Assembly: GCF_014836675.1 (NCBI RefSeq)
Contig: NZ_JACSQK010000002.1
Location: 434,001 to 498,000 of the forward strand
DNA length: 64,000 nucleotides
Direction: 5' to 3'
Origin: Comamonas avium
GTDB taxonomy: Bacteria > Pseudomonadota > Gammaproteobacteria > Burkholderiales > Burkholderiaceae_C
Positions 44,699-53,419 of this stretch are shown one piece after another. The notes under the pieces are model-generated. The model did not search any database, was not told where the DNA came from, and saw only the letters and a program-made list of their open reading frames with translations. Every line of letters begins with the position of its first letter. Within the stretch, counting starts at the first letter, position 1. A program made the translations under genes and the position numbers.

Positions 44699-44889
44699 GG
44701 CAATCGTTCTAGGCAGAGAAAACAAACGCCTGAAAAGCAGGCGCGAAGCCATCATACGCAAGCCCATGCGGGCAGACCCCTGGCGTGTTCCATGCCCGTG
44801 CCACTCAGAAGTTTGCACATCGCAACACTTGTCGCCTCGGCGTAAGCGATGTAGCGCAAAGCACCCGTGCAACTGCGAAAATCTGCAAC

Positions 44890-45837
44890 GTGCTGCCTAT
44901 TCTTGCGATCACCTTTCCTTTCTTTGCCCTCGTGCTATGCGGCTTTGTCGCCACGCGCCGGGGTGTTCTGCCGCTGGCGGCCATCCCCGGCCTGAACACC
45001 TTTGTGCTGTACTTTGCGCTGCCATGCATGCTGTATCGCTTTGGCGCGCAAACACCGCTTGCGCAGTTGCTTGACCCCGTGGCCGCCAGTGTCTATCTGC
45101 TGTGCGGGCTGCTGATGGTGGCCGGCACCATGGTTGTGACGCACAAAAAATGGGGCTGGAACGATGCAGCCTTCGGGGCTTTGGTCGCTGCGTTCCCCAA
45201 CTCGGGCTTTATGGGAGTGCCGCTGCTGGTGGCCCTGCTGGGTGCTGCCAGTGCGGGTCCCGTGATTTTGACCATGGCGATTGACATGGTCATCATCAGT
45301 TCGCTGTGTATTGCGCTCTCGCGTCTGGGGCAAGGCGAAAAGGGCGTGGCACAGGCACTGCGCAATGCGCTCAAGGGCATCGTGACCAATCCCATGCCGT
45401 GGTCGATTGCTTTGGGTGCTGTGGCATCGGCCTGTGCCTTTGAATTGCCTGGCCCCATCGATCAAACGGTGGCCATGCTGGCAGGGGCAGCGTCTCCTGT
45501 GGCTTTGTTCACCATTGGCGCGGTGCTGGCGCGTTCGCAGTGCAATCAGCACGAGCATGTAGCACCGCGTCACTATGTGCCGATTGCTTTGGCCAAACTG
45601 CTGCTGCACCCGGCATTGATGTGGCTGGCTTGCCAGGTCGTGATGGCTGCTGGCTGGCACATGTCTGCGTTGACCGTCACCGCTTTGGTTCTGGTGGCCG
45701 CGCTGCCCAGTGCCAGCAATGTGTCGCTGCTGACCGAGCGTTTTGGTGCCCACGGAGGCCGCGTTGCCCGCATTATTTTGGTGAGTACGGCGCTGGCGTT
45801 TCTGACATTTTCTGCCAGTGTGGCTTTGCTGGTGTAG
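44890..45837 (+). CDS. AEC family transporter
   Basis: 315 residues from GTG 44890 (LPILAITFPFFALVLCGFVA). The frame is open upstream to 44785, but that extension is not hydrophobic and would be foreign to the family. Ten membrane helices are visible with the AEC pattern: FVLYFALPCMLYRF, FGALVAAFPNSGFMGVPLLV in the first half, and ALPSASNVSLLTERFGAHGG in the second. AEC (auxin efflux carrier) permeases move organic acids such as malate or malonate. Substrate here unknown. It is divergent from rep across 191 bases. Confidence 0.87.
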   Translation: MLPILAITFPFFALVLCGFVATRRGVLPLAAIPGLNTFVLYFALPCMLYRFGAQTPLAQLLDPVAASVYLLCGLLMVAGTMVVTHKKWGWNDAAFGALVAAFPNSGFMGVPLLVALLGAASAGPVILTMAIDMVIISSLCIALSRLGQGEKGVAQALRNALKGIVTNPMPWSIALGAVASACAFELPGPIDQTVAMLAGAASPVALFTIGAVLARSQCNQHEHVAPRHYVPIALAKLLLHPALMWLACQVVMAAGWHMSALTVTALVLVAALPSASNVSLLTERFGAHGGRVARIILVSTALAFLTFSASVALLV

Positions 45838-46021
45838 CCCCCGTATGGTGTGAACCTGAGTCACATCGTGTCCTGCCCTTGTGAATTGGGGCAAACTACG
45901 CGCAGTTTTGCTTGCCAAAACCCACAGCGACAGCCAGTGCATGGGGCGTTTTGTGGAGTTTTTGCGCGCTGCGTGTGATCCGCTCATGGGCTGGGCACAG
46001 CGCATATCTTTGTTTGTCACT

Positions 46022-47551
46022 ATGTCTTCATCTTCCACTCCGACCCCGCAACCCCTGCTGACGCGCTGTCTGTTGATTGCTGCGGCACTGTATGTGCTGG
46101 TGTGGTCACTGCTGCCGCCTTTGCTGTCACAAAGCTTGCCACTGGATGTGGTGGAGAGCTTGTCCTGGGGGCGGGAGTGGCAGTGGGGCACGTACAAGCA
46201 CCCCACGCTGGGTCCCAGTGTCTTGCACGTGTTTTACATGGCGTTTGGCAAGGTTGGCCCTTTCTTGCTGAGCCAGCTGTGCATCGTGGCGACGCTGTGG
46301 ATGGTGTGGCTTACCGGCTGTCGCCTGATGAGCCGTGAGCGCGCTTTTCTAGGGACGGTGCTGACCATGGGCGTGGCCTATTACGGCTGGCCCGCCATTG
46401 AGTTCAACCACAACATTGCGCAGATGCCTACGTGGGCTGCGCTGGGCTATCTGTATGTAGCGGCCCTGCAGGATGGCCGTTTGCACCAATGGCTGCTGCT
46501 TGGTTTGATGGCTGGTTTGGGCATGCTGACCAAGTATTCCATCGGCATCATCTTGGCCTGTATGGGGCTGTACATCTTGCTGTCTGCGTACCGCAAGGTG
46601 CTGCTAGGCCCGGGCCCATGGCTGGCCCTTGTGGTGTTGTGTGTGGTGATGGCACCGCACCTGTACTGGCTCAAAACCTCTGAGTGGCTGCCCTTTGCCT
46701 ATGCGGGCGAGCGTGCTGCCACCGCCAGCGACAGCCCGCGTTTAGCGGCGCTGGGTTTCTTGCTCACCCAGTTCCTGAATCATTTGCCTTTGCTGTGTAT
46801 TGCGGGCTTTGCCGCACTAAAGGCCCGCAAGCAGTGCCAAAAGGAAGGGCTAGTTGCCTCGCCTTGGCACCTGCATACCCAGCATCCTGCCTTGTTGCTG
46901 GTGCTGGCGTTGGGCCCCGGCTTGCTGGTAACGGTGCTGGGTGTGACCTTGGGTATGCGTTTGCGTGACATGTGGGGCACCACCATGTGGGCCTTCAGTG
47001 GCCTGGTGGTTGCCGCCTGTGTGCCGACGGCCTGGCTGGGTGTCATGCGGCCCAGGGTTGTGCGTGGCGTGGGTGTGTGGCTGGTGCTGCTGACGATTTT
47101 TGCAGGCATCTACCTGACGTACGGGGCGCAATTGCGCAAGCGCCCTGCGCGCATGGACTGGCCTGCGGTAGCTTTGGCGCAGCAAGCCCAGCAAACCTGG
47201 AGCCAGGTGAGCAGCTGTCGTCTGGATGTGGTGGCGGGGGACTATTGGCTGTCCGGTCTGGTGGCTACGGCGATCGGCTCCCATGGCCCTTCGGTGCTCA
47301 TCACGGGGGATGCGCGCTATTCACCATGGGTAACGCCACAGCGATTGCAGCAGCATGGTGCCCTGTGGCTGCGCCAGGAAAAGGACATGGATGTCTACAC
47401 CAGCCCCCCTCAGCCGCTGGAGGCTGTGGCGCAATCGACGGACTTTACGGTCATTGACGGGACATGGAACATTGCCTGGGCTTATGACTCCAAAGCCCAG
47501 CCCTTGACGGTGCGCTGGCGCGCATATGTGCCCGCATCCTGTGTGAAATAA
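46022..47551 (+). CDS. GT39-family glycosyltransferase (ArnT/LgmB-like)
   Basis: 509 residues from ATG 46022. About 11 membrane helices. The first periplasmic loop has LPLDVVESLSWGREWQWGTY then KHPTLGPSVLHVFYMAFGK, the D-x-x-E plus YKHPP-type signature of polyprenyl-phosphate-dependent GT39 enzymes such as ArnT and LgmB. LTKYSIGIILACMGL lies in the middle. The C-terminal periplasmic domain follows the last helix. It should transfer a sugar from undecaprenyl phosphate to an envelope acceptor, probably lipid A. First gene of a four-gene operon; 16 bases separate it from the GT2 gene. Confidence 0.88.
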   Translation: MSSSSTPTPQPLLTRCLLIAAALYVLVWSLLPPLLSQSLPLDVVESLSWGREWQWGTYKHPTLGPSVLHVFYMAFGKVGPFLLSQLCIVATLWMVWLTGCRLMSRERAFLGTVLTMGVAYYGWPAIEFNHNIAQMPTWAALGYLYVAALQDGRLHQWLLLGLMAGLGMLTKYSIGIILACMGLYILLSAYRKVLLGPGPWLALVVLCVVMAPHLYWLKTSEWLPFAYAGERAATASDSPRLAALGFLLTQFLNHLPLLCIAGFAALKARKQCQKEGLVASPWHLHTQHPALLLVLALGPGLLVTVLGVTLGMRLRDMWGTTMWAFSGLVVAACVPTAWLGVMRPRVVRGVGVWLVLLTIFAGIYLTYGAQLRKRPARMDWPAVALAQQAQQTWSQVSSCRLDVVAGDYWLSGLVATAIGSHGPSVLITGDARYSPWVTPQRLQQHGALWLRQEKDMDVYTSPPQPLEAVAQSTDFTVIDGTWNIAWAYDSKAQPLTVRWRAYVPASCVK

Positions 47552-47567
47552 GAAGTCAGGCAAAGCG

Positions 47568-48608
47568 ATGCAAAAAAATGAAATGAGCCAGCCTCAGCCC
47601 TCTGTCGATGTCTGCCACGCAGCCTATATGCCGGCAGCCCCGCATGGCGTCGTGCCCCGTGCACCTTTGCTGCTCAGCTGTGTGGTGCCCGCCTACAACG
47701 AGCAAGAAAACCTGGAGGGTTTCTTGCGTGCCTTGATTCCGGCTGTGCAAGCCCTGACGCCGCACTTTGAGGTCATTGTGGTCAACGACGGCAGCAGCGA
47801 CGCCACGCACGATGTGGCGATGCGGCTGGTCAATGAAATGCCTGTGCGCTATCTGGCGCTTTCGCGCAACTACGGAAAAGAGGCCGCACTGTCTGCAGGT
47901 ATTGACCATGCGCGCGGCAATGCGGTGCTGCTGATTGATGCCGACTTCCAGCACCCGCTGGAGCTGTTGCCAGAGATGCATGATTTGTGGCTGCATGGCT
48001 ACGAGATGGTGTATGGCGTGATTGCCGATCGAGGTGCCGAAAGTGGTGCCAAGCGGCTGGGTACCGAGCTGTTTTACAAGCTCATGAATTCGGGAAGCAG
48101 CGTCAAGGTGCCGCCCAATGCGGGCGATTTCCGCTGGATGGACCGCAAAGTGGTCGATGCACTCAAGGCCTTGCCTGAACGCAATCGCTTTATGAAGGGT
48201 CTTTATGCTTGGGTGGGCTTCAAAACGGCGGCTTTGCCGTTTGTTCCCAAAGACCGTGCGGCTGGGGCATCCAGTTTCAACCTGCGCCGTCTGGGTGCGC
48301 TGGCCTTGCTGGGGCTGACCTCATTTACCACGCTGCCACTGCGCGTGTGGAGCGTGATTGGCGGGCTGGTTGCCTCGATTGCACTGGCTTATGGCGCATG
48401 GATCACGATTGACACGTTTTTGTTCGGTGCGGACCTGGATGGCTGGCCTACGCTGGCGGCGGGCATCATGCTGTTTTCTGGCGTGCAGCTGATGTCCATT
48501 GGTATTTTGGGTGAATACATTGGCCGTATCTATGACGAAGTCAAGTGCCGGCCCACGTATTTGGTGGCGCGTGACGAGGATCACAGCCCTTTGCGCGATC
48601 AGGCATGA
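47568..48608 (+). CDS. GT2 glycosyltransferase (undecaprenyl-phosphate sugar synthase type)
   Basis: 346 residues. The cytoplasmic GT-A domain has SCVVPAYNEQENLEGFLRAL, VIVVNDGSSDATHD and the metal-binding LLIDADFQHPLELLPEM. PKDRAAGASSFNLRRLGALA precedes two C-terminal membrane helices, as in ArnC, GtrB and LgmA/FlmF. Such enzymes load a sugar from a UDP-sugar onto undecaprenyl phosphate on the cytoplasmic face. With a deacetylase in the operon, an N-acetylhexosamine donor is likely. ATG 47568 or 47583 are both possible starts. The stop overlaps the GtrA start. Confidence 0.92.
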   Translation: MQKNEMSQPQPSVDVCHAAYMPAAPHGVVPRAPLLLSCVVPAYNEQENLEGFLRALIPAVQALTPHFEVIVVNDGSSDATHDVAMRLVNEMPVRYLALSRNYGKEAALSAGIDHARGNAVLLIDADFQHPLELLPEMHDLWLHGYEMVYGVIADRGAESGAKRLGTELFYKLMNSGSSVKVPPNAGDFRWMDRKVVDALKALPERNRFMKGLYAWVGFKTAALPFVPKDRAAGASSFNLRRLGALALLGLTSFTTLPLRVWSVIGGLVASIALAYGAWITIDTFLFGADLDGWPTLAAGIMLFSGVQLMSIGILGEYIGRIYDEVKCRPTYLVARDEDHSPLRDQA

Positions 48609-49024
48609 CAGGCTGGCGTTTGGTATTGCAACGCCTGCAGGCGCTGCCCCAGTTGCTGCAGTTCATTGTGGTGGGCGGCAGCGCTGCGGCCACCCATCTG
48701 GCGACGGTTGGCGTTGTGGTAAGTCTGACGGGCATGCCCCCTTTGTGGGCCAATGTGCTTGGCTTTCTGGTGGCATTTATCGTCAGCTACAACGGCCATG
48801 CATGGTTGACTTTCTCCGCTGCGCAAGCGCGTGGCTGGGCCACGGTGGCACGGTTTTTTGCCGTGGCGTGCCTGGGTTTTGTGGCCAATGAATCGTTGTA
48901 CGCCATCGCCTTGCATGGTTTGCACTGGCACTATTTCTGGAGCCTGGCAGGCGTCTTGGTGCTGGTGGCAGCAGGGACTTTCGTTTTGAGTAAGTTCTGG
49001 GCTTTTAAAGCGCGAACAGCATGA
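48605..49024 (+). CDS. GtrA family membrane protein (lipid-linked sugar flippase)
   Basis: 139 residues with four membrane helices. LPQLLQFIVVGGSAAATHLA opens the family, followed by NVLGFLVAFIVSYNGHAWLT (the F-x-V-S-Y-x-x-x-x-x-F/W-T motif) and the terminal FVLSKFWAFKA. GtrA proteins are thought to flip undecaprenyl-phosphate sugars to the periplasm. ATGA overlaps at both ends join it to the GT2 and deacetylase genes. In the lgm comparison it fills the role proposed for LgmD. Confidence 0.9.
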   Translation: MTGWRLVLQRLQALPQLLQFIVVGGSAAATHLATVGVVVSLTGMPPLWANVLGFLVAFIVSYNGHAWLTFSAAQARGWATVARFFAVACLGFVANESLYAIALHGLHWHYFWSLAGVLVLVAAGTFVLSKFWAFKARTA

Positions 49025-49857
49025 CCCGTCCGAATGCGCTGCGTGCGCTGATTTTGTGTGCAGATGATTACGCCTTGCACCCCCTGGTGGATGCTGCGGT
49101 GGAGCAACTGACGCTGGCCGGCCGCCTGTCGGCCACGAGCTGCATGACCACGTCGCCGCGCTGGGTGCAAGCGGCCCCACGTCTGAAAGCACTGCGCCCC
49201 CGCTTGTCTGTGGGGCTGCATTTCAATCTGACCGAAAGCCACGGCGGTGCCGTGCCTGCGTATGCGCTGGGCGATGTCATCAAAAAATCCTATACCCGCC
49301 AGTTCTCAGCGGCCGCGCTGCGCCTGCAGTGGCAGCAGCAGCTGGATGCGTTTGAGCAGGCTCTGGGCACAGCTCCTGATTTTATTGATGGCCACCAGCA
49401 TGTGCACCAGTTGCCGGGCATGCGCGATGCCATGCAGGAGGCGCTGCACCAGCGTTATGCAGGCTCAGAAATGCCGTGGGTGCGATCGACCGCACCAGCC
49501 GGTGGTTTGTGGCGCAGCCCCAAGGCGGCCATCATTGCGTTGCTGGGGGGCTGGACCACCACGCGCCAGTTGCAGCAATCTCATGTGCCTGTCAACACAG
49601 GTTTTGGCGGTGTGTATGGGTTTGATGCCCCTGATGCCGCCAGCTATGGCGCACAGATGGCGCAGTGGCTGCCACAGCTGTGTGATGGCAGCCTGGTGAT
49701 GTGTCACCCGGCCACCGATGTGGTGCAGGGCGATGCGATTGGCAGGCAACGCCCGGTGGAGTTTGCCTATCTGATGTCTGAGGCCTTCGCTGCGCTGTTG
49801 CAGCAGCACCATGTACAGGTGGCACAAGGTCCCTTGCGCCACCTGATGAAAATGTAA
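49021..49857 (+). CDS. ChbG/HpnK (YdjC) family carbohydrate deacetylase, NaxD/LgmC-like
   Basis: 278 residues. Metal and catalytic motifs of the YdjC fold: LILCADDYALHPLVDAAVEQ (D-D at the metal site), VGLHFNLTE with histidine, and FIDGHQHVHQLPGMRDAM (H-x-H). CHPATD near the end is the last metal-side motif. No signal peptide, so it works in the cytoplasm. In Francisella NaxD and Bordetella LgmC, this family removes the N-acetyl group from undecaprenyl-phosphate GalNAc or GlcNAc before transfer to lipid A. The operon context supports the same reaction here. HpnK (hopanoid) is the alternative, but no hopanoid genes are nearby. Confidence 0.87.
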   Translation: MTRPNALRALILCADDYALHPLVDAAVEQLTLAGRLSATSCMTTSPRWVQAAPRLKALRPRLSVGLHFNLTESHGGAVPAYALGDVIKKSYTRQFSAAALRLQWQQQLDAFEQALGTAPDFIDGHQHVHQLPGMRDAMQEALHQRYAGSEMPWVRSTAPAGGLWRSPKAAIIALLGGWTTTRQLQQSHVPVNTGFGGVYGFDAPDAASYGAQMAQWLPQLCDGSLVMCHPATDVVQGDAIGRQRPVEFAYLMSEAFAALLQQHHVQVAQGPLRHLMKM

Positions 49858-49906
49858 AAACAATAGCTGCCAGCGATTGTTTATCAAGCACTGGCAGCCA
49901 GTTTTA
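49856..49906. terminator. Palindrome between convergent genes (dispersed repeat)
   Basis: GCTGCCAGCGATTG (49866-49879) pairs with CAAGCACTGGCAGC (49885-49898), 12 of 14 positions, five-base loop. A short run of A precedes and TTTTATC follows, so it can stop transcription from both the deacetylase and the asparaginase genes. Same family as 41223-41257. Confidence 0.75.
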
Positions 49907-51142
<1,236 letters not shown>

Positions 51143-51229: not shown

Positions 51230-53419
51230 TCAAAGCGACAGCGGATCTACATCGACCAGCCAGCGCACCACGCCTTTGTGCTGTGGCTGCCCGCGCACCC
51301 AGTGCAGCCACGGCTGCCACGCATGCAAAAATCTTTGCAGGGCGCGGCGGTCGGCGGCCTCAATCAGCATCTGGGCGCGCTCCACATTGGCTACGCGCTG
51401 CATGGCCATGGGAATGGGGGGGTAGACAAATACATCGTCCAGACAGGGCAACTGCCCCTGGCGTGCGGCATCGGTGGCGGCACGCAAAAAAGCCTGGGCG
51501 GTTTCCTGCGTCCTGGCATCGGCACGGACCAGCGCCTGGAATGCATAAGGAGGCATGCCCGCGTCCTGGCGTTCCCGCAACTGCTGGGCCGCGAAGGCCG
51601 GGTAGTCATGCTGGCGCAGGGCGGCGAATACGCTGTGCTGCGGCTCAAAGCTTTGCACCCACATTTCTGGCTGACTGCCTTGGTCGCTGACATAGGCGGC
51701 ATCCCGGCCAGCGCGGCCAGCGGCCTGCATCAGCAGGCAAAACAGGCGCTCGGGTGCCCGGAAATCGCTGGAAAACAGAGCGCCATCGGGCTGTACCGCT
51801 GCCACCAAGGTGATGCGACGAAAGTCATGGCCCTTGGCAACCATTTGGGTGCCCACCAGCACATCCACCTCGCCGCTGTGCACCAGCGCCAATTGCTCTT
51901 GTAATGCCCCTTTGAGCTTGGTGGTGTCGGCATCAATGCGTGACACACGGGCCGGCTGGCCGTCTGGGCGTTGCACGTTGCGCAGCAGACGCTCCAGCTC
52001 TTCTTGCAACTGTTCCGTACCTTTGCCCAGGGGAAGGATGTCAGGGTTGCCGCAGCTGGGGCAGGCGTGTGGCACACGCTGGGTGTAGCCACAGTGGTGA
52101 CAGCGCAAGGTGCGGTCACCCTTGTGAAAAACCTGGTGGGCGCTGCAGTGCGGGCAATCGCTTTTCCAGTTGCAGTCTGCGCAGTACAGCACCGGGGCAA
52201 AACCGCGCCGGTTCAGCAAGATCAGGCTTTGCTCGCCCCGTTGCACACGCTCGGTGATGGCTTCCAGCAGGGGCTGTGAAAACACGGTTTTCTTGGGCTG
52301 CTGGGACATGTCCACCAGGCGCACCCGCGGCAGTGCGCCTGCACCAATGCGGCTGGGCATGTGCAGCCGCAGGTAGCGAGCCGGCCCGCCACTGCTGGCT
52401 GGCTCGCTGGCGTGCCAGCTCTCCAGCGAGGGTGTGGCGCTGCCCAAAATGACCTGTGCTTGGCAGGCATGACCGCGCCACAGTGCCAGGTCACGTGCGG
52501 AGTACCGCGCACCCTCTTGCTGCTTGTAGCTGGGGTCGTGCTCTTCGTCGACCACAATGACTTTCAGCCCGGGCAGGCTTGCAAAAATCGACATGCGCGT
52601 CCCCAGCACAATGCGTGCGGCCCCAGTGTGGGCGGCCAGCCAGCTTTTCAGGCGCTGCACATCGGTCATGCCGCTGTGCATGCTGACGACGGCTTGAGCG
52701 CCAAACATGGGCATGAAGCGCGATTCAAAGCGCTCTTGCAATTGGGGCGTCAGGTTAATTTCAGGCACCATGACCAGCGCCTGTGCCTGCGGGCTGGCCT
52801 CCAGCGCCTGTTGCACCACGCGCATGTAGACCTCGGTCTTGCCACTGCCGGTGCTGCCGTACAGCAAGAAGGGGCCTGGATTTTGGATGATCTGGCTAAA
52901 AACGCTTTGCTGTTCAGCACTCAGTGCTATGGATTCTGAATGGTCTTGAGATGGCTCAAGACAGTTATCCACAGCCTGCTGTGCTGCTGCTGCCGTTGCT
53001 GCTGCGCCTTTTTTGGATGGTTTTTTGGGTTTGGGCGGCTGCAGTCGTTTGGCCAGTTGCTCGGCTGTCATGTCGCGCAAGGCTGGTGGCAGGCCCGCCA
53101 TGGCGATTTCGCCCACGCTGCGCTGGTAGTAGCGGGCTGCAAAGCTCACCAGACGCTGCCACGTGGTGTCCAGCGCAGGCAGCCCCTGCATGACGGCTTC
53201 AATGGCACGCAGTTTGGCGTGCTCAGGCGGCGGGGCTGCGTCCTGCGGTGCTGGCCACACGACGCCCAGCAGCTGGCGCGTACCCAGCGGCACGCGCACC
53301 AGCGTGCCAGGGGGCAACGGGTGGCTGTGGGTGTAGCTCAAGGGGACTCCCACGCCGCTGTGCACAGGGGTGTGGACTGCCACATGGACCACATGCAATG
53401 TAGGAATCGGGTCAGACAT
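51230..53419 (-). CDS. priA: Primosomal protein N' (PriA helicase)
   Basis: 729 residues. N-terminal 3'-end-binding domain, then a winged-helix region with a Lys/Ala-rich insert (PKPKKPSKKGAAATAAAAQQ) near 135-150. Helicase motifs are LLYGSTGSGKTEVYMRVVQQ, VIVVDEEHDPSYKQQEGARY, VILGSATPSLESWHA and AAGRAGRDA. Zinc-binding CADC, CPHCSAHQ, CHHCGYTQ and CPSCGNPDI knuckles sit between the two helicase lobes, as in all PriA. It reloads the replisome at stalled or repaired forks, the step after RecBCD repair. DnaA-box-like sites lie upstream. Confidence 0.97.
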   Translation of the reverse strand: MSDPIPTLHVVHVAVHTPVHSGVGVPLSYTHSHPLPPGTLVRVPLGTRQLLGVVWPAPQDAAPPPEHAKLRAIEAVMQGLPALDTTWQRLVSFAARYYQRSVGEIAMAGLPPALRDMTAEQLAKRLQPPKPKKPSKKGAAATAAAAQQAVDNCLEPSQDHSESIALSAEQQSVFSQIIQNPGPFLLYGSTGSGKTEVYMRVVQQALEASPQAQALVMVPEINLTPQLQERFESRFMPMFGAQAVVSMHSGMTDVQRLKSWLAAHTGAARIVLGTRMSIFASLPGLKVIVVDEEHDPSYKQQEGARYSARDLALWRGHACQAQVILGSATPSLESWHASEPASSGGPARYLRLHMPSRIGAGALPRVRLVDMSQQPKKTVFSQPLLEAITERVQRGEQSLILLNRRGFAPVLYCADCNWKSDCPHCSAHQVFHKGDRTLRCHHCGYTQRVPHACPSCGNPDILPLGKGTEQLQEELERLLRNVQRPDGQPARVSRIDADTTKLKGALQEQLALVHSGEVDVLVGTQMVAKGHDFRRITLVAAVQPDGALFSSDFRAPERLFCLLMQAAGRAGRDAAYVSDQGSQPEMWVQSFEPQHSVFAALRQHDYPAFAAQQLRERQDAGMPPYAFQALVRADARTQETAQAFLRAATDAARQGQLPCLDDVFVYPPIPMAMQRVANVERAQMLIEAADRRALQRFLHAWQPWLHWVRGQPQHKGVVRWLVDVDPLSL

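Follow-up and report, generated by a model that had tools for sequence, protein, structure and literature searches.

Single-gene exchange of a non-ArnT transferase in a gtrABC-like, probable amino-sugar operon of Comamonas avium and its relatives

A four-gene operon in a 64,000-nucleotide stretch of the Comamonas avium genome (the window; assembly of 3.93 Mb in 19 contigs) encodes a membrane transferase, a GT2 polyprenyl-phosphate sugar synthase, a GtrA-type flippase and a YdjC/ChbG-type deacetylase. These parts are of known kinds; what is new is the exchange of the transferase, which appears to be replaced as a single gene, drawn from at least three deep lineages, while GT2, GtrA, YdjC and the flanking genes stay. 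With moderate confidence, we read the locus as a multi-component transmembrane glycosylation operon that follows the logic of gtrABC with a deacetylase added, and whose acceptor is the lipopolysaccharide (LPS) core or O-antigen, not lipid A phosphate. GT2 would load undecaprenyl phosphate with an N-acetyl sugar, presumably N-acetylglucosamine (GlcNAc) or N-acetylgalactosamine (GalNAc). YdjC would strip the acetyl group, probably at the cytoplasmic face, GtrA would flip the lipid-linked amino sugar, and the transferase would move it in the periplasm onto what is probably a surface glycan. YdjC beside GT2 and GtrA is easily taken for lipid A amino-sugar modification, and hence for polymyxin resistance, as in a sequence-only reading of this operon. 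Here the acceptor cannot be read from the donor genes alone, because those are common to the lipid A systems, whereas the transferase belongs to a different family and is traded as one gene.

A search with YdjC yielded the 37 named loci compared here, of which 36 have GT2, 32 have GtrA (it is missing from 5) and 32 have a PMT_2-type transferase. The transferase is of the window's subfamily (type II, or KHPP type) in 31, of the ArnT type (type I) in 1, and absent within reach in 5, some of them near a contig end. The type II genes divide into classes A (12, plus the window's own), B (12) and C (6), with a single gene, in L033, outside all three. Across 465 locus pairs, transferases have a median identity of 25.8% and GT2s one of 78.7%. 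Over the available pairs it is 74.0% for GtrA, 65.6% for YdjC, 73.6% for the permease upstream and 73.8% for PriA downstream. Transferase identity is two-humped, with 317 pairs below 35%, 147 at 45% or above and 1 between, and the GT2 median is similar in both humps (78.2% in the lower versus 79.8% in the upper). Locus L014, which has no GT2 match, was excluded from the GT2 pair and tree counts.

Single comparisons give the same picture. Comamonas kerstersii and the window share 24.8% identity in the transferase, 87.5% in GT2, 78.4% in the permease and 83.9% in PriA. The window's DNA aligns to the end of the permease gene (45816 with C. kerstersii, 45805 with Delftia) and resumes inside the GT2 gene at 47668, with the gap blank; C. 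jiangduensis DNA additionally aligns over 46130-47251 at 65.7%. The class A or B gene lies on the same strand between permease and GT2 in all 18 loci with the permease compared. Elsewhere the placement varies: the class A gene of L038 is behind YdjC on the opposite strand, and the six class C genes are divergent from GT2.

Trees were built on chosen rows from among the loci, 65 for the transferase and 51 for GT2. Classes A, B and C sit on three deep branches of the transferase tree: class A beside genomes from a different order and from different classes, class B beside L171, a locus of another order, and class C beside the type II genes found in clusters elsewhere in Burkholderiaceae. A single clade for the three classes is rejected (approximately unbiased (AU) test, p 2.1e-5), for a group defined after the tree was seen and with the long branches L220 and L177 removed beforehand. 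The 19 sampled GT2s of the three classes, by comparison, form one clade in which A and B are intermixed, and a tree of GT2 plus YdjC for 30 labelled loci needs at least five changes of transferase class. L171, from the same bacterial class but another order, has the window's four-gene order with a class B-branch transferase and a GT2 far from the Comamonas ones.

A plasmid or phage source was set aside: the window transferase has no match (E<=1e-5) in 50,697 phage and 72,556 plasmid records. Foreign origin by composition was likewise rejected, as the gene has a GC content of 60.9% and a third-position GC content (GC3) of 73.9%, against 58-63% and 67-74% in seven neighbours.

The transferase gene (46022..47551, + strand) encodes a GT-C membrane enzyme of type II, class A, that would perform the last step. 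It matches Pfam PMT_2 at 5.2e-24, and the label ‘GT39’ in the sequence-only reading is best read as this match; ArnT-type enzymes belong to CAZy family GT83. An in-frame GTG lies upstream at 45881, and homologue lengths fit the start at 46022.

Several comparisons indicate that the window transferase is not an ArnT-type protein, and an ArnT-type identity was rejected by the PDB and NCBIfam profiles, the tree and the non-overlapping scores. In a search of PDB, the type I profile matches ArnT (5ezm) at 8.8e-82, and the type II profile has no ArnT match at E<=1. The NCBIfam ArnT model is matched by 2 of 29 type II versus 27 of 27 type I members. Across 98 transferase open reading frames (ORFs), many of which had been used to build the two profiles, the bit scores never overlap: type II proteins score at least 390 with their own profile and at most 22.8 with the other, and type I proteins at least 119.6 and at most 37.6. 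The transferase tree separates the types with a Shimodaira-Hasegawa-like approximate likelihood ratio test (SH-aLRT) value of 100. The window transferase has no meaningful score against Escherichia coli ArnT, and a genome search found no ArnT-type gene in the host. The proposal that the transferase is of the LgmB kind therefore fails, with ArnT serving as the stand-in for LgmB.

The residues agree with the profiles. In ArnT, the ion pairs D55/R58 and D158/K203 (Cupriavidus metallidurans numbering) are described as orienting the lipid A phosphate (PMC8306577). Type I proteins keep both, as D39/R42 and D142/K187. In the window transferase they are incomplete: D158 corresponds to N131, and K203 is kept as K171. 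Type II has no conserved arginine for R58 and has D42 and E45 instead, in a first loop whose alignment is unsure. That first periplasmic loop (residues 42-61; 46145..46204, + strand) differs from the ArnT-type DExRY...KP, and D42, E45, W49, G56, K59, H60 and P61 are invariant in an alignment of 29 type II proteins. At the level of fold, the window transferase has a GT-C fold with a C-terminal domain, as in ArnT. ArnT is also its nearest fold in the VIA list (ArnT, PMT, oligosaccharyltransferase, ALG and mycobacterial arabinosyltransferase folds), a list that leaves families outside its rows as possible fold relatives. A class B structure model from a single sequence was poor (predicted local distance difference test score (pLDDT) 42.9) and was left unused.

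The preference for a gtr-type reading comes partly from a relative in another order. Locus L161 (genome G695), from the same bacterial class, has a transferase 41% identical to the window's over 489 alignment columns (288 bits), and G695 is the top-scoring genome for the transferase outside the window's order in a sample of 398. Against the class B enzyme that occupies this slot in Delftia, the window's transferase scores only 62 bits. The gene order at L161 is transferase, GtrA-type gene and GT2, the GT2 is 66% identical to YfdH, and no YdjC was found within 12 kb. Since the L161 transferase sits with GtrA and a YfdH-like GT2, it would have the role of GtrC.

The window operon thus resembles gtrABC seroconversion with a deacetylase added. 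Like the O-antigen glucosylation operons of Salmonella and Shigella and E. coli YfdGHI, it combines a GT2, a GtrA flippase and a GT-C transferase, and in both the GT-C gene is the variable member, the other two being conserved. It differs in the added YdjC and in a transferase that lacks a phage or plasmid match. The residue of attachment and the linkage formed depend, in Salmonella, on gtrC, the variable gene of the gtr operons (PMC2909390), and three-component glycosylation systems are treated in PMC11127046 and PMC8035078.

With a constant donor module and an exchanged transferase, the acceptor site probably differs between species. As the transferase is also not of the ArnT type, the acceptor is most likely a variable one, with LPS core or O-antigen preferred to lipid A phosphate on these sequence comparisons. 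Two points weigh against this: the transferase fold is ArnT-like, and nine clusters with both transferase types (described below) could supply both phosphates of lipid A.

The donor half of the sequence-only reading stands: GT2 and YdjC retain their conserved columns and the trio is found repeatedly in Comamonadaceae. On this basis the operon is still predicted to make and flip a polyprenyl-phosphate amino sugar. The GT2 gene (47568..48608, + strand; Pfam Glycos_transf_2 5.9e-30) encodes a DxD motif at D124/D126, invariant in 118 aligned rows. Its product is 45% identical to E. coli YfdH and matches sll0501 in PDB at 3.3e-88 versus 3.2e-40 for ArnC-type structures; we take sll0501 to be a GtrB-like glycosyltransferase. 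The GtrA-type flippase gene (48605..49024, + strand; Pfam GtrA_DPMS_TM 1.1e-20) is followed by the YdjC/ChbG-type deacetylase gene (49021..49857, + strand; Pfam YdjC 2.1e-49). Deacetylase residues D15, D16, H67, D123, H125, H127 and H229 are invariant in 127 aligned rows, and the metal-binding and catalytic positions known from ChbG-type enzymes are presumably among them. The presence of YdjC suggests an N-acetyl sugar as the loaded sugar, in place of gtr-type glucose.

A hopanoid- or chitin-type deacetylase beside unrelated glycosyltransferase genes is highly improbable. The deacetylase does match the NCBIfam models HpnK (52.7 bits) and ChbG (51 bits), but these weak scores are far under the cut-offs of 232.6 and 227, and both identities were rejected. 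The recurrence of GT2 and GtrA in the named YdjC loci, and the gene order, also disfavour it.

The four-gene operon itself proved real and lies where the sequence-only reading had placed it, with all ORFs on the + strand; the repeated finding of GT2, GtrA and a PMT_2-type transferase in the named YdjC loci speaks against a chance grouping. ATGA overlaps join the GT2 stop to the GtrA start (at 48605) and the GtrA stop to the YdjC start (at 49021), and the transferase-GT2 junction is a 16-base gap. What it shares with the lipid A systems is a single operon for loading by GT2, deacetylation by a YdjC-type enzyme, flipping by GtrA and transfer by a GT-C enzyme; the match fails in the kind of transferase.

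Bordetella LgmA-D, which adds glucosamine to lipid A, comprises the same four protein kinds (GT2, ArnT/PMT-type transferase, deacetylase and GtrA-type protein). The assignment of Lgm letters to these kinds, ArnT excepted, is our assumption; in particular, we take lgmD to be the GtrA-type gene of the locus. lgmD is not essential in Bordetella pertussis (PMC4993483). The Bordetella transferase is called an ArnT ortholog in the title of Marr 2008, and the lgm locus is described as ‘comprising ArnT’ (PMC5454989); in B. holmesii, ArnT (1967952-1969541) lies inside lgm (1966909-1970398; PMC5454989). The ArnT ortholog is thus mid-locus in Bordetella, whereas the window has a non-ArnT transferase in first position. 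Francisella lipid A galactosamine modification by FlmF2/NaxD/FlmK, in which NaxD is part of the deacetylation step, shares the logic of loading, deacetylation and transfer. flmF2 and flmK are named in PMC4688374. ArnT of arnBCADTEF shares the GT-C fold and a polyprenyl-phosphate amino-sugar donor; the window transferase has no sequence match to it and does not keep its residues, and the donor genes differ.

Loci outside the named set usually pair the donor genes with an ArnT-type enzyme. Among 60 other Burkholderiaceae loci of about 12 kb, 39 have type I only, 9 have both types, 5 have type II only and 7 have none. These loci were hand-picked, not random, from 158 YdjC-positive genomes of 399, leaving out 18 with close YdjC matches (at least 56% identity, the window's own included) and 30 short loci. 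On the counts from the named and other loci, the donor genes are usually partnered by type I in the loci sampled outside Comamonas, Acidovorax, Delftia and kin, and by type II within that group. The loci with an ArnT-type and a KHPP-type transferase beside one donor module are L087, L104, L108, L109, L112, L113, L117, L123 and L127; perhaps two acceptor sites lie behind them.

Of 53 Comamonas genomes, 44 carry YdjC and 42 a type II transferase; type II is present in 41 of the 44 YdjC-positive versus 1 of the 9 YdjC-negative genomes, and lies within about 4 kb of YdjC on the same contig in 30 of the 44. These counts were read by eye at E<=0.001, and G819, G827 and G832 enter them through distant type II matches only. 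The Fisher p of 1.6e-6 for co-occurrence is not a fair probability because the species counted are related. In 150 family genomes, 34 of the 36 with a strong type II match (E<1e-60) have YdjC (also read by eye; exceptions G019 and G091), versus 158 of 399 overall. A type I gene occurs in 19 of the 53 Comamonas genomes, all 19 with YdjC; in 18 of them it is not linked to YdjC, and each of those 18 carries type II as well.

These distributions bear on the possibility that lipid A is modified by the other subfamily, with type II placing glucosamine (GlcN) or galactosamine (GalN) on a lipid A phosphate, perhaps the one that an ArnT-type enzyme leaves. We consider this rather unlikely. In its favour are the donor genes, the same as in ArnT-type clusters, the fold nearest ArnT, and the genomes in which the ArnT-type gene accompanies YdjC and type II. 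However, the type II enzymes lack an ArnT profile match and do not keep the ion-pair residues, and a nearer relative of the window transferase lies in a gtr-type operon. A constant lipid A phosphate acceptor also does not explain transferase swapping among Comamonadaceae. As a weaker point, review text on C. testosteroni lipid A describes its acyl chains and mentions no amino sugar at the phosphates (PMC7956469).

It is unlikely that the amino sugar goes to a different surface polymer or to proteins, such as capsule or pilin. PMT_2 relatives include the eukaryotic protein mannosyltransferases, but PF02366 (PMT) matches 0 of 29 type II proteins, and no glycoprotein or capsule genes were noticed beside the operon in a reading of the ORF list, without a dedicated search.

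Searches of the host genome gave two matches to EptA_B_N (128.6 and 24.3 bits) and two to Wzy_C; the four lie at G000:C11:68036-68479 and 221347-221745 and at G000:C12:341856-342317 and 77265-77702. The Wzy_C matches suggest that O-antigen-type assembly may exist, although they show only ligase/polymerase-type proteins, and the EptA_B_N matches suggest that the host may have another cation-adding route. Polymyxin resistance from the operon is a guess.

More broadly, and only tentatively, the gtr-type reading could amount to amino-sugar seroconversion in Comamonadaceae: a fixed donor module would supply a positive sugar to a variable glycan, and the transferase alone would be traded, shifting the site of charge, perhaps under pressure from phages or grazing protists. 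Species that naturally differ in transferase class should then differ in amino-sugar site. We found no description of the operon in Comamonadaceae, nor of a gtr-type operon that combines a deacetylase with a non-ArnT transferase subject to exchange, in a literature search that mostly did not reach subscription journals.

The flanking genes served as constant-neighbour controls and lie outside the system; their names (permease, PriA helicase) come from reading the translations. Identity to the window's copy is 66.9-83.5% for the upstream permease (44785..45837, + strand) over 18 named loci whose transferase is of class A or B, and 71.1-83.9% for the downstream PriA (51230..53419, - strand) over 12 such loci. 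The flanking proteins have their nearest counterparts in Comamonas: C. jiangduensis (L003; permease 84%, helicase 95%) and C. kerstersii (L006; 78%, 94%). Scanning 45700-50100 for promoters yielded two - strand sites, barely more than shuffled sequence yields. An inverted repeat 3' of the deacetylase gene (49866..49898, no strand assigned) is a possible terminator: the fold of 49858-49925 has -17.6 kcal/mol, and the hairpin is not among the terminator-scan predictions. Past it lies a convergent gene that reads as an asparaginase.

Some Comamonas loci depart from the common arrangement. The deacetylase gene is matched as fragments only in G827, G832 and G793, where the operon may be decaying; in G789 the YdjC match is split between contigs. 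In G825 (locus L219), YdjC, type I and GT2 are grouped in an lgm-like cluster. The neighbours of its ArnT-type gene are HPPK, PcnB and HAD, so a two-component regulator beside the unlinked ArnT-type genes was rejected. In L210-L215 the ArnT-type transferase is alone, with neighbours matched by size and order only, apparently at the same site as the L219 cluster; these isolated genes may be what is left of an lgm-like cluster.

Another Comamonas cluster holds a distant type II relative. L222 combines a GT2, an LPG_synthase_TM protein, this transferase, an epimerase and a UDP-glucose dehydrogenase (Pfam in L222 only). It recalls Rgt, the galacturonosyl transferases of rhizobia, whose sugar, galacturonic acid (GalA), carries no amino group and calls for no deacetylase. 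The L222 cluster, and perhaps likewise L225 and L226, is probably a galacturonic acid decoration system.
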